From Brevinema andersonii (GTDB taxonomy: Bacteria; Spirochaetota; Brevinematia; Brevinematales; Brevinemataceae), in NCBI RefSeq assembly GCF_900112165.1, contig NZ_FOKY01000004.1:1-64000 (forward strand): DNA of 64,000 nt, read 5' to 3'. The translations under genes were made by a program, and so were the position numbers. This document shows positions 3,145 through 64,000 of this stretch, piece after piece. The number at the start of each line of letters is the position of its first letter. The first letter of the stretch is position 1. The notes beneath the pieces are model-generated. The model saw only the letters and a program-made list of their open reading frames with translations, searched no databases and was not told the DNA's origin.

Positions 3145-4119
3145 ATGCAGCAAGAACTCAAAAGTGAAGATGAAATCATACAGGAATTAATGATTCTTTT
3201 TGAAGTCGAAGGGGATCGTATTGGTATTGGAGATGATGCTGCCGTATTGGAGTATCATCAGTTGCTTTCTGTTGATGCGATGGTTGAAGGTGTCCATTTT
3301 CTTAAGGAAAAAGCTTCTTGGGATGATGTTGCTTACAAACTTTTTGCTGGAAGTGCTAGCGATATGGCAGCAATGGGTGGTTATGTGACTGGTTACCTTT
3401 TGAGTTTAGGAATGCCTTATGATTGGCATAATGATGATTTACGTATTTTTATTCAAGGTATTAAAGAGTTCATTCATGAATTTCCTGCTGATCTATTGGG
3501 CGGAGATATTGTGCGTTCAAAAGAGTTTTTTGGGTCTGTTACAGTTCTGGGAAAAACATTTACTCAACCTTGGCTTCGAACTGCAGCCAAGCCTGGTGAT
3601 TTTATTTATGTAACGGGTACTTTGGGTGATTCACAGCTTTATCTTCAGCATGAATTGAGAAAAAATATTTTGCCTATGAAAGATTTAACTTATTTTAAGC
3701 AGCGTCATTATCGACCTATTCCTCGTATTGATTGGGCGCAAGAAATCAATAAAAAATATCGGGTTCATGCGGCGATGGATATTAGCGATGGTTTGATTGA
3801 AGATCTTAGTAAATTATGTCGCTTATCAGGAGTTAATTTTTATGTTGACGCGAATCTTCTGCCTTTGAGTACAGCATTTATTGGGGAAGAAAATATTTCA
3901 GAACATAAAGTGTTTTATCAGCATAATGCGCTTATCGGCGGCGAAGATTATGAGTTGATTATTATTACGGATGAAATTATGGATGAAGATACTTTGCTAG
4001 ATCAAGGTGTAAAAATAACTAGAATTGGTCGCATTCTTACGGAAGAAGAAACTAGTATTGTCTTATGGAACAATAAGCGTCATACCAGTAATGAATTTCA
4101 GGGTTATAGGCATTCTTAA
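3145..4119 (+). CDS. thiL: Thiamine-monophosphate kinase
   Basis: 324 aa, AIR-synthase/ThiL fold. It phosphorylates thiamine monophosphate to the active cofactor thiamine diphosphate. Visible family motifs are GDDAA (29-33) for metal/ATP, VDAMVEGVHF near 43-52, SASDMAAMG, GGDIVRS and DISDGLIEDL. The ribosome site GGAGG precedes the ATG. The gene lies in the trkA-to-argS run, and its stop codon directly abuts the ATG that could start the next gene (TAAATG), so translation is probably coupled. Confidence 0.93.
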   Translation: MQQELKSEDEIIQELMILFEVEGDRIGIGDDAAVLEYHQLLSVDAMVEGVHFLKEKASWDDVAYKLFAGSASDMAAMGGYVTGYLLSLGMPYDWHNDDLRIFIQGIKEFIHEFPADLLGGDIVRSKEFFGSVTVLGKTFTQPWLRTAAKPGDFIYVTGTLGDSQLYLQHELRKNILPMKDLTYFKQRHYRPIPRIDWAQEINKKYRVHAAMDISDGLIEDLSKLCRLSGVNFYVDANLLPLSTAFIGEENISEHKVFYQHNALIGGEDYELIIITDEIMDEDTLLDQGVKITRIGRILTEEETSIVLWNNKRHTSNEFQGYRHS

Positions 4120-4159
4120 ATGCAACAGCGCTTAGAAAATACTCTTTATAAGGTGATGC

Positions 4160-4612
4160 GTGCGTATTTTCCAGATTTCTCGGGGGGGGGGGGGGGGGGG
4201 GGTAAATATTCCTTATATTAAACTTTCTCAAGGGAGATTCAAAAAACAGCGTAGAAGCATTGTTTTTGGAACGTATGATGCGCTTAAAAATGAAATAAAA
4301 ATTCATCCTATTCTTTTAGAGTCAGTACCAGAAATTGCTTTAGAGTTTGTTATTTATCATGAATTACTTCATTTTATGGAGCGTGATATTTTGCTGGTAC
4401 GCAAAAAGAAAATGCGTGTACATACTAAAGAGTTTCGGCAGCAAGAAAAAAAATTTTTTCACTATGATAAAGCCCAAAAAATATTAAAAGATTTGTTATA
4501 TAATCGTGAAATTTCTTATGTAGACAGACTTTCTCTTGAAGAACAGATAACTGCTTCTGTGGATAACGATAACCTTGACAAGATTTTAACATACTATAAA
4601 AACAAACAATAA
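4160..4612 (+). CDS. SprT/YgjP-like zinc metalloprotease, frame controlled by a poly-G tract
   Basis: The body of the protein shows a zinc-protease core: a strand-rich segment, then VIYHELLHFM (HExxH zinc site) and a third-ligand candidate in VHTKEF. As read, the only start in frame with this core is GTG 4160, because 21 consecutive G (4182-4202) lie between the upstream starts and the core. The natural start is probably ATG 4120, which abuts the thiL stop, or ATG 4156. Both are in the frame that runs through seven glycine codons and ends at TAA 4219. With 20 G (or 17, 23) ATG 4120 would enter the core frame and give about 163 aa. Expression is therefore expected to switch with tract length. 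The substrate is unknown. Confidence 0.75.
   Translation: MRIFQISRGGGGGGVNIPYIKLSQGRFKKQRRSIVFGTYDALKNEIKIHPILLESVPEIALEFVIYHELLHFMERDILLVRKKKMRVHTKEFRQQEKKFFHYDKAQKILKDLLYNREISYVDRLSLEEQITASVDNDNLDKILTYYKNKQ
4182..4202 (+). repeat. Homopolymer of 21 G inside a coding region (contingency-tract candidate)
   Basis: Uninterrupted G21 in an otherwise AT-rich gene, placed 20 codons after the likely ATG. Tracts of this length slip readily during replication and place the downstream metalloprotease core in or out of frame. The exact count is also the kind of number assemblies get wrong. Confidence 0.95.
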
Positions 4613-4623
4613 GGAGTTCTTAT

Positions 4624-4833
4624 ATGGTAAAGAAAAGGTATATGAATAAAAATAACTGGCTCATGATGGGATTAGGTATCCTGATTACGTTTTTAGGGTA
4701 TTATCTTATTTCGCCTATCACTAGAGATTATGAGACTCCTAAAGCATTTTTTGCAATTCTGGTTCTTAATGTTGGATTGCTGATAGTAATTTTAGGGCTT
4801 TCCTTAAATTTTTCGGTAGGACAGTCTAGATGA
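4624..4833 (+). CDS. Small two-helix membrane protein, unknown function
   Basis: 69 aa. A basic N terminus (VKKRYMNKNN) is followed by two hydrophobic helices, about 13-31 and 42-61, joined by a polar loop with charged residues (TRDYETPK). The ribosome site AAGGAG sits 8 nt before the ATG at 4624. Its stop overlaps the argS start (ATGA), so it is translated with argS. No family recognised. Confidence 0.7.
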   Translation: MVKKRYMNKNNWLMMGLGILITFLGYYLISPITRDYETPKAFFAILVLNVGLLIVILGLSLNFSVGQSR

Positions 4834-6392
4834 TCAATTGCTCACCTAAGGAATCCATTCGTTATTTGGTGACGCAGGCTCTTATTAGAATAGGAGCTGA
4901 AATTCCTCATTTTATTGCGGTTGAATCCCCAGAAAATCCAGAATATGGTCATTATGCTGTTCCGATTGCTATGCAGCTTGCGCGTTCTCTGAAAAAAAAT
5001 CCACGGCTTATTGCTCAAGAAATATATAATATCATACATCAAGATTCTATGTTTTCTAAGGTTGAAATTGCAAGAGCTGGATATTTAAATTTTTTTTTAA
5101 GTTCGGATTATCTAGAGCAAAAACTTCAATTTATTATGAGCCATAATGATTATGGAAAAAACTCTTCTCTTCAAGGCAAACATATACTTTTGGAATATGT
5201 CAGTGCAAATCCTACAGGGCCTCTTCATATTGGACATGGGCGTTGGGCAGCTATAGGTGATAGTTTGGCACGGTTTCTTAGTTTTTCGGGAGCTTCAGTA
5301 CACCGCGAATTTTATATTAATGATGCTGGAATTCAAATCGCCCATCTAAATGAAAGTGTTCAGGCAGTACTTAGAGGAGATGCTATTTCAGAAGACGGTT
5401 ATCATGGAACATATATTACAGAACTTGCTCAGGAAACAAAAGCACTAAATCAGCCTCCGGAACAGATTATGTTGGAAAAACAAAAAGCTACTCTTAATGA
5501 ATTTCGTGTTGTTTTTGATACTTGGTTTTCAGAGAAAACATTACATGAATCAGGTGATTTAGAAACAGCCATCCAAAAACTTAAGGGAAAAAATGCTGCT
5601 TACACTAAAGATGGAGCACTATGGTTTCGTTCTTCTGAATTAGGAAAGGATGATAAAGATCGTGTTTTGGTTAAAAGTGATGGCTCGTATACTTATTTTG
5701 CTGCAGATATTGCCTATCATTTCAGCAAAATAAAGCGAGGATATTCTTTTTTGATTGATATTTTAGGTGCTGATCATCATGGTTATGTGGAACGGATTGC
5801 TGCAGCTGTAAAAATTTTTGGTGGTGAATTATTTGTGCTTTTAGGGCAGCTGGTGAATTTGTTCCGGAATGGTGAGCCTGTTCGTATGTCAAAACGTACT
5901 GGTGATTTGATTTCGTTGGATGAAGTAATTAATGAGATAGGTGTTGATGCATTACGTTATTTATTGTTACGGCGTCCTATCCGTTCAGCACTTGATTTTG
6001 ACCTGGAGAAAGCAAAAATTATCAGTAATGATAATCCTGTTTATTATGTTCAATATGCTCACGCTCGGATTTGTTCTATTTTAAGAAATACCCAGCTGGA
6101 TGCCGATTTTCAGCATTTTAAAGGCGAACATGAAAAAGAGTTGCTTAGAGAAATAGTAAAATTTGAAGATATTATTTTAGAAATTGCTCATGATTTTGAT
6201 TTACAAAAATTGCCTGCTTATCTTGAAGGATTAGCTTCATGTTTCCACCGTTTTTATAAGAACTGCAGAATTATTGACGATCCTAATGAATCATCACGAT
6301 TAGCGTTATGTGTTGCTGCACGGACAGTTTTTGCCAATGGATTAGAATTGCTGGGTGTCTCTGCTCCAGAAGTAATGAGCCATGAGGCTTGA
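4830..6392 (+). CDS. argS: Arginyl-tRNA synthetase
   Basis: Class I synthetase that charges tRNA-Arg. 520 aa, at the short end for the family. The N-terminal tRNA-D-loop-binding domain (1-95) is present, followed by the catalytic core with EYVSANPTGPLHIGHG (HIGH at 133-136), the KMSKS-equivalent RMSKRTGD near 353-360, and a C-terminal all-helical anticodon-binding domain starting around NPVYYVQYAHAR. The start overlaps the preceding stop by 4 nt. Its end overlaps the next gene by 11 nt. Confidence 0.96.
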   Translation: MINCSPKESIRYLVTQALIRIGAEIPHFIAVESPENPEYGHYAVPIAMQLARSLKKNPRLIAQEIYNIIHQDSMFSKVEIARAGYLNFFLSSDYLEQKLQFIMSHNDYGKNSSLQGKHILLEYVSANPTGPLHIGHGRWAAIGDSLARFLSFSGASVHREFYINDAGIQIAHLNESVQAVLRGDAISEDGYHGTYITELAQETKALNQPPEQIMLEKQKATLNEFRVVFDTWFSEKTLHESGDLETAIQKLKGKNAAYTKDGALWFRSSELGKDDKDRVLVKSDGSYTYFAADIAYHFSKIKRGYSFLIDILGADHHGYVERIAAAVKIFGGELFVLLGQLVNLFRNGEPVRMSKRTGDLISLDEVINEIGVDALRYLLLRRPIRSALDFDLEKAKIISNDNPVYYVQYAHARICSILRNTQLDADFQHFKGEHEKELLREIVKFEDIILEIAHDFDLQKLPAYLEGLASCFHRFYKNCRIIDDPNESSRLALCVAARTVFANGLELLGVSAPEVMSHEA

Positions 6393-29098: not shown

Positions 29099-30544
29099 AT
29101 GAGTGATACAGCTTTACATGAATTTATGGAGCAGGAATATCAGCATGGATTTCACACAGATGTAGAAGTTGATCAGGCTCCTCTTGGGCTTAACGAAGAT
29201 ATTATTCGGCTTATAAGCGAACGCAAAGGTGAGCCAGAATATATGTTAGAATTTCGTCTTAAAGCGTATAAACACTGGTTGACAATGACCCCCCCCGAGT
29301 GGTCGCGCAATCAGTTAGAAAAAATAGATTTTCAGAAATTGCGTTATTATTCGGCCCCCAGAAAACGTTCTGGGCCTCAAAAGGCATCGCTAGATGAAGT
29401 AGATCCTGAAGTGTTAAAAACTTTTGAACGTTTGGGAATTCCGCTCAGCGAGCAAAAACGGCTAGCTAATGTTGCGGTTGATGCAATTTTTGATTCAGCG
29501 TCTGTTGCAACTACGCATCAAAAATTTCTTGCTCGTCACGGAATTATTTTTTGCTCAATCACCGAGGCTATCAAAGAATATCCCGATCTTATCAAACAAT
29601 ATTTAGGTTCAGTTGTTCCGGTTACGGATAATTATTATGCTGCTCTTAATTCGGCGGTATTTACGGATGGATCGTTTTGCTTCATACCGAAAGGTGTAGT
29701 CAGTCCAATGGATTTAAGCACATACTTTCGCATCAACTCTCAAGAAACAGGCCAGTTCGAGCGTACACTTATTGTTGCGGAAGAAAAAAGTTTTGTTAAT
29801 TATATTGAAGGCTGTACAGCACCACAATTTTCATCTCATCAGTTACATGCGGCTGTTGTGGAAATTGTTGCTTTAGAAGATGCCGTTGTGAATTATTCTA
29901 CAGTGCAGAATTGGTTTCCTGGCGATAAAGATGGAGATGGCGGCATTTACAACTTAGTTACCAAAAGAGGCATCTGTAAGGGTGATCGTTCTAAAATTAC
30001 ATGGACGCAGATTGAAGTTGGGTCGGCAGTTACGTGGAAGTATCCATCAGTAATTCTTAAGGGAGACCACAGTAGGGGGGAATTTTATTCCGTTGCACTT
30101 ACCAATAACAAGATGCAGGCTGATACTGGTACGCGTATGGTGCATTTAGGAAAAAATACAAGTTCTTACATTGTTTCAAAAGGGATTTCTGCGGGACAAA
30201 GCCGAAATGTTTACCGTGGTTTGGTGTCGATGGCGAAATCAGCAGTGAATGCAAAGAATTTCACTCAATGCGATTCCATGCTGATTGGTGGTGAATGTTC
30301 GGCAGTGACGTATCCCTATATTGAAGTTAAACATCCGTCATCGCAGATTGCTCACGAAGCAACTACCAGTCAGATCAGTGAAGAACAAATCTTTTACCTC
30401 CAATCGCGTGGCCTGGATAGAGAACAAGCAGTATCATATATTTTGAATGGATTTTGCCAGGAAGTATTTAAAAAATTGCCGGCCGAATTTTCTGTGGAAG
30501 CTGTTCGGCTGCTAGAATTGAAATTAGAAGATAGTATAGGATAA
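29099..30544 (+). CDS. sufB: Fe-S cluster assembly scaffold SufB
   Basis: 481 aa, full length. It forms the SufBC2D scaffold on which iron-sulfur clusters are built. Conserved blocks include [44 protein letters not shown]-like [10 protein letters not shown], and the C-terminal [12 protein letters not shown] followed by [17 protein letters not shown] ribosome site. First gene of sufBCDSU; a short C7 run (29290-29296) inside it keeps the frame. Confidence 0.96.
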
Positions 30545-62763: not shown

Positions 62764-64000
62764 ATGCAAAAAAAATATTGGTTTCATTGTTTACTGTTTT
62801 TGTTGATTTATACACTCTTAAATTTTTATCAGCTGCCTGTATTATTAAAAGAAGTAACAGGACGTGCTCATCATCCGGATCAATTTGTTCAAGGGAGCGC
62901 TTATTTTAATGAAGCCATTTTTAATCTGTCAAAATTTGATCATATTAATCTTCAAAATTTTTATAATGTTGTTAGTGCAGATTCTTTGTACCTTCATAAT
63001 TACGACTTTTATACGGATGCCCATTTTATTGCTTCCGTATATCAGGCAATTACTACAGGCCGTGATATTAAAAAAGAAAATGGATCTTATAATTTTGCTG
63101 GAGGTCGTGGCTTAGTTGATTTTAGAGATGAAATAGTATCTAATAATAAATTTATACCTACTAATGAAGAAGTGAAAAATATGGTAGGTTTATATGCTAC
63201 GGCATATAATAATATTGCTAATCTTATCTATACAGTTCTATCCCCCCCCCCCCCCCCGGATAACTATGTATTAACCGATCAACAAAAAATAGAACTTTCT
63301 CAGCGAATGACACGTCTTCATCAATTTAAAATTTTTATTCATGGAGTTTCATGGTCTTTGTTGATGTTTGCTGTTGCAGTTAGGTTTAATCTTGTTTTTG
63401 CTTGGATTATTGCTCTTGTTGTATTATTTTTCCCTGGTACTCATCGTCACAGTATTATCTGGGTTCATGCGTTTACTATTAATGGGTTTCTGCCAGCTTA
63501 TATTCTATATTTTTATCCTTATATTCAATTGGGAGAATATCAAAAGTAAAAAAAGCGTTGATTTTTGCCGGATTTTTGGGGCTGCTTACTATACTTTTTT
63601 CTTTATAGGACCTATATATTTTATATTTATACCCTTGCCTGTCATCTTAACAATGATCCTTTTCCAAGATATTTTTTATATTTATAATCATATAAAATCA
63701 AAAAATAGCTTAATGTTGTATGCCCGTCAACTGCTATCCCGTTATTTCATATTGGCTATATCAGTACTTTTTGTATTTGTTTTGATTCATATATCCGAAT
63801 GGAACGAAGCCAAGCAAATGCTACCACAATTAGGATCTCGGTCAGCAGAGTATGATGAAAAATACTATATTTATCAAAAACAATTGGAGAATTACTTTAA
63901 CATTGCCGAGCGAAGTAAAAATTCTACTTTGTCTATGTCCGTAGCAATATTAAGAAAAGAAGGTGGTAATTTAGAAGATTATAATGTTTATCATTCTCCT
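62764..64000 (+). pseudogene. Frame-disrupted multi-pass membrane protein gene (copy 2), runs off the window
   Basis: The first frame (62764-63549, 261 aa) has an N-terminal helix, an exported loop with SAYFNEA and SVYQAITTGRD that align with copy 1, a proline stretch from the C16 tract, then three helices ending at TAA 63547. The homologous continuation appears in a second frame (VKKALIFAGFLGLLTILFS, about 63546-63600) and then a third (GPIYFIFIPLPVILTMILFQ and on to the window end). Adding one A in the A4 run near 63542 and one T in the T6 run near 63595 would restore one long frame. It is either decayed or read incorrectly at homopolymers. Confidence 0.75.
63242..63257 (+). repeat. Homopolymer of 16 C inside coding sequence (contingency-tract candidate)
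   Basis: C16 in the exported loop of the copy 2 membrane protein. At this length the frame upstream continues correctly into the downstream helices; loss or gain of one C would stop translation soon after (the neighbouring frame meets TAA at 63272). Confidence 0.95.

Follow-up and report, generated by a model that had tools for sequence, protein, structure and literature searches.

The window analysed here, a stretch of 64,000 nucleotides from Brevinema andersonii, carries a run of genes on the forward strand. A thiL-like gene with AIRS and AIRS_C domains (3145..4119) ends in TAA and is followed without a gap by the ATG (4120..4122) of a gene for an SprT-like metalloprotease. Downstream of the latter lie a gene for a small membrane protein (4624..4833), of which a homologue is also found downstream in four relatives (L002, L003, L004 and L009), and an argS-like gene (4830..6392), named by reading the sequence, which ends the gene run. 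No promoter stood out above shuffles in the thiL-argS interval, and an upstream frameshift might be polar on the argS-like gene.

The protease gene is interrupted by a tract of 21 G (4182-4202), flanked by C and T and read as six Gly codons in the protein frame. The tract follows the ATG-frame stretch MQQRLENTLYKVMRAYFPDFS (4120..4181), which codes for an N-terminal helix, and thus begins 62 bases into a frame of ~490 bases, within the first fifth of the gene. An earlier note on this DNA had placed 21 G at this distance from an ATG abutting the thiL stop, and both positions were confirmed. The other G runs of the window have at most six bases; C runs reach eight, apart from a single C16 at 63242. 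As dinucleotide shuffles of the window gave a mean of 0.03 runs of at least nine G and the other G runs stop at six, a chance origin of G21 was ruled out. We regard the C8 at 29289-29296 as an ordinary run of codons and not as a repeat tract. Long homopolymers are poorly counted by short reads, and the exact assembled count of 21 is therefore uncertain.

The consequences of tract length were read from the frames of the sequence for 15-24 G. At the assembled 21 G the native ATG is OFF, given that it opens only 33 codons before a stop at 4219..4221, whereas a GTG at 4160..4162 opens a 150-aa frame that ends at 4612 and contains the HELLH motif at 4358. Within the computed range, the ATG reaches the catalytic core solely at 17, 20 and 23 G, and the GTG, which lies in the core frame if the tract is a multiple of three, solely at 15, 18, 21 and 24 G; at 16, 19 and 22 G neither does. 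From the end of the tract to HELLH, the core frame contains no ATG, GTG or TTG. The frames thus bear out what had been proposed, namely that the ATG runs into the stop at 4219, that the GTG is the sole route to HExxH at 21 G, and that the loss of one G joins the natural start to the core. The locus holds a pure repeat of a mutable type towards the 5′ end of a coding sequence, and on paper a change in its length toggles an intact and a truncated product while the remainder of the gene stays intact.

The protease and its relatives

The core, including its stop (4203..4612), matched the Pfam SprT-like family PF10263 at 26.0 bits (range 26.0-26.1), narrowly above the curated cut-off of 25.6. The HELLH zinc-binding motif (4358..4372) and a presumed third ligand, H101 (4421-4423), are among 26 positions that are invariant across nine sequences, and the combination of HExxH with a downstream third His is that of the SprT-like superfamily. 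With the tract read as 20 G, a one-step shift, the joined protein is MQQRLENTLYKVMRAYFPDFSGGGGGGVNIPYIKLSQG..., 163 residues. This protein matched none of the NCBIfam SprT equivalogs, and the relative L002 scored 19.6 bits against an equivalog cut-off of 175. It also contains no Cys, so that the C-terminal zinc ribbon is absent. Given the missing ribbon and the missed equivalogs, we assign the protein to the SprT-like/minigluzincin group and not to SprT proper.

In the AlphaFold model of the joined form, the helix at residues 2-16 had a mean pLDDT of ~91 (block means 92 and 90), the core was confident, and the loop holding the Gly run fell below 50. Foldseek ranked archaeal minigluzincins at the top (selecase, E 5.1e-4), followed by weaker matches to the DNA-protein-crosslink-repair protease entries 6mdw/6mdx (E 0.05-0.14, probability 0.99-1.0). 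A profile-based sequence search of the PDB returned a weak minigluzincin match alone (projannalysin, E 0.9). No second sprT-like copy that could act as a backup was found in the genome, and a plasmid search using the locus gave no match.

Homologous loci were compared to trace the origin of the tract. In the nearest relatives, L002 and L003 of the Brevinemataceae, the order thiL, sprT-like gene and small membrane gene is that of the window. Their protease gene lies directly after thiL, its ATG overlapping the thiL stop (TAATG), and is free of the tract; no G or C run of at least six bases was found at either locus. Six more distant homologues likewise lack the tract, and the ATG is the start in all relatives compared. 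Inheritance of the tract in common with the relatives was therefore ruled out by the two tract-free loci, as was the GTG as the ancestral start by the relatives' use of the ATG. Translated in the ATG frame, and in neither of the other two, the 21 residues that precede the tract align with the N-terminal helix of the relatives (summed scores 173 against 78 and 79); 3 of 5000 shuffled peptides score as high. Since these residues align in the ATG frame only, the tract was inserted into an old gene, an intact member of the SprT-like/minigluzincin group, at the loop that links its first helix to its first strand. The earlier note had named a repeat-free homologue starting at the GTG as the finding that would speak against a switch; the homologues are indeed repeat-free, yet their start is the ATG beside thiL. 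Among the genomes searched, the tract is confined to the lineage of the window. It is missing from the sister genus, so conservation lends no backing to selection for switching.

A candidate frame switch and its alternatives

The analysis establishes the tract and its frames, the start used ancestrally, the integrity of the catalytic residues and a set of long G tracts across the genome. On this basis we consider it probable that the locus is a translational, phase-variable poly-G frame switch in an SprT-like protease gene. The G tract in the 5′ loop would be hypermutable, and slipped-strand mispairing would alter its length by single G's. At 17, 20 or 23 G, the ATG beside thiL would be joined to the catalytic core, yielding the full protein with its Gly run in a flexible loop. 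At other lengths the ATG product would end after about 26-34 residues, and at 18, 21 or 24 G the GTG at 4160 could possibly still make a form without the N-terminal helix. The most likely behaviour is thus an ON/OFF switch, to which a third state, weak or altered, may be added. We infer slipped-strand control from the homologues, from the set of G/C tracts in the genome and from repeat copies carrying two tract lengths. Tract length would accordingly differ within a population, the protein level would presumably follow it, and switching may be under selection.

The rate of such switching is a separate matter. MutS_I and MutL_C are present in the genome of the window and in 20 of 20 relatives searched, so that the tracts are not explained by a loss of mismatch repair. 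Their presence should slow slippage and counts, like the OFF state of the native start at the assembled length, against the proposed switch, although a run of 21 G is still expected to slip. A G14 tract in mismatch-repair-proficient (non-mutator) meningococcus mutated at a rate of 9.3e-9, ~1e-8 (PMC5953494). Given this low published value, a fast rate is not to be assumed from tract length alone.

The GTG deserves attention in its own right. It is preceded by a Shine-Dalgarno-like AGGTGAT (4151..4157) with a duplex energy of -10.0 kcal/mol with the 16S tail, matched or exceeded by 2.2% of the ATG and GTG codons on the forward strand of the window, while the native ATG reaches -4.3 kcal/mol and may rely on translational coupling to thiL. 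The earlier view of the GTG holds insofar as it is the sole in-frame route at 21 G; it fails insofar as a codon with so strong a site is no mere accident of frame. The strong site means that 21 G may yield a truncated isoform and not nothing. Tract length could then set three states, with the full protein at 17, 20 or 23 G, a helix-less GTG isoform at 18, 21 or 24 G and no product at 19 or 22 G, and the cells of a population would differ in both the amount and the form of an internal protease of SprT-like fold; we regard this as unlikely. A related reading is equally doubtful, in which the GTG, as an isoform switch or a new constitutive start, directs synthesis of a shorter protease at 21 G, so that the tract alters the N-terminus and does not turn the gene on and off. 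The ideal spacing of AGGTGAT, its stronger duplex and the in-frame position of the GTG at the assembled length all favour it. The GTG form, however, loses the conserved N-terminal helix, is modelled less well (mean pLDDT 74.0 against 78.6 for the joined form, with 90 or more reached by 50 residues against 82), and departs from the ATG used by all relatives. The site itself may also be fortuitous, because AAG GTG codes for KV, which belongs to a KVN motif of partial conservation.

It is about as improbable that the gene is simply decaying, an accidental G expansion having broken a dispensable gene with no selection for switching. The assembled state is OFF, the relatives lack the tract, and the C-terminal part, longer in L002 and L003, is mostly missing from the window protein, as decay would have it. 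Against this, 135 codons remain open past the tract, HExxH, the third His and the other family-invariant positions are intact, and an uninterrupted G run of such length is not likely to remain fixed at an out-of-frame count.

Errors of tract length might also be made good at a later step, during expression. A run of 21 G in an mRNA could slip or form an RNA G-quadruplex, so that transcriptional or ribosomal slippage would supply some full-length protein at any tract length, or the quadruplex would damp translation whatever the frame. No sequence feature at the locus demands such a correction, and we hold it to be decidedly unlikely. Least probable is an assembly artefact in the tract or its length: short reads miscount long homopolymers and several tracts lie near contig ends, but both flanks match one continuous gene in the relatives, and the tract is therefore not a false join, while 12 such tracts occur in the genome in varied contexts.

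G and C tracts elsewhere in the genome

Contingency genes classically include those for glycans and for DNA methyltransferases. The genome of the window (1.50 Mb in 39 contigs) holds the 12 G/C tracts of at least 10 bases with both flanks seen, whereas the two best-covered sister genomes hold 0 and 4. The C16 of the window (63242-63257) lies in frame within an ORF for a 261-aa membrane protein (62764-63549), and a family 2 glycosyltransferase is encoded downstream; the membrane protein ORF is ON at 16 and constitutes a second candidate switch in the window. Elsewhere, in the region L023:1903-2737, a C14 adjoins family 2 glycosyltransferase fragments split over several frames, a broken locus, and a C10 lies in frame in a sugar dehydratase-type gene. 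Another C16 (L026:2022-2037) separates a glycosyltransferase ORF from a gene for a capsule-type glycosyltransferase, whose start is 115 bases further on; here a promoter or leader switch is possible. A gene for a D12-class adenine DNA methyltransferase, its frame broken upstream of the DPPY motif, carries a G12 at its 3′ end (L024:2717-2728); the neighbouring DUF6056 gene has a G8 in frame. Several further tracts fall in gaps between genes.

Tracts also occur in a decayed IS1595-like element, in which the G tract stands directly before an ATG (L016:2001-2011, L017:2032-2045 and L027:1-11). Two copies carry 11 and 14 G between flanks that are identical over 80 bases before and 205 bases after the tract. 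Tract length would thus appear to change more quickly than the surrounding sequence acquires point substitutions. A reservation applies, in that each of the two copies stops at the end of a contig and the difference could be an assembly effect. Contig 13 starts within the tract, and contigs break at it. In MAGs of the sister genus, a C11 lies in frame in an 829-aa ORF (L037:2014-2024), and an ORF that resembles DNA polymerase III gamma/tau, named by reading the sequence, holds a G10 (L040:1138-1147); neither is a tract gene of the window's genome. The list of tracts represents a starting phasome for the organism.

Comparison with known phase-variable systems

To our knowledge, no poly-G switching has been described in the Brevinemataceae. 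If the proposed switch is real, spirochete poly-G switching extends to this family and to an internal protease. The SprT-like fold is common to proteases of DNA-protein crosslink repair, and cell-to-cell variation would then reach beyond the surface to protein quality control or genome maintenance, which a fragment-length assay could test. The protein shares with PF10263 and the minigluzincins (selecase, jannalysin and abylysin) the HExxH with a downstream His, a small fold and the best structural matches; it differs in the lack of a zinc ribbon and in a loop, following the first helix, that carries the Gly run.

The mechanism itself is already known, while the SprT-like target is new as far as the literature searched shows. 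In translational phase variation the tract usually sits in the first fifth of the gene (PMC2823697). A pure 5′ G tract with frames that toggle a full and a truncated product is common to the window and to the poly-G loci of Campylobacter, Helicobacter and Neisseria (PMC6321876, PMC2823697, PMC5953494). The tracts of Campylobacter and Neisseria typically have 9-10 G, against 21 G here, and the switching of the window is predicted from its sequence.

A cytoplasmic SprT-like protease had been called an unusual target. That claim is weakened by precedent for internal proteases and peptidases, since Neisseria and Campylobacter are reported to have a phase-variable Clp protease (PMC5953494), and the core phasome of C. 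jejuni includes the putative M28 zinc peptidase Cj1295 (PMC6321876). Like the switch proposed here, both concern a protease or peptidase as the target of repeat-driven variation; Clp, however, varies through an in-frame hexamer repeat and not a G tract, and Cj1295 belongs to an unrelated peptidase family. The claim stands for the SprT-like family, for which no phase-variable member was found in the literature searched; pairing SprT with phase variation turned up two papers, each with a single mention of SprT. A parallel exists in another spirochete, Treponema pallidum, in which G tracts of varying length control tprE/G/J/L and tp0126 (PMC7864442, PMC3373638). The best-proven cases there concern the promoters of outer-membrane protein genes, whereas the tract of the window lies in the coding region of an internal enzyme.
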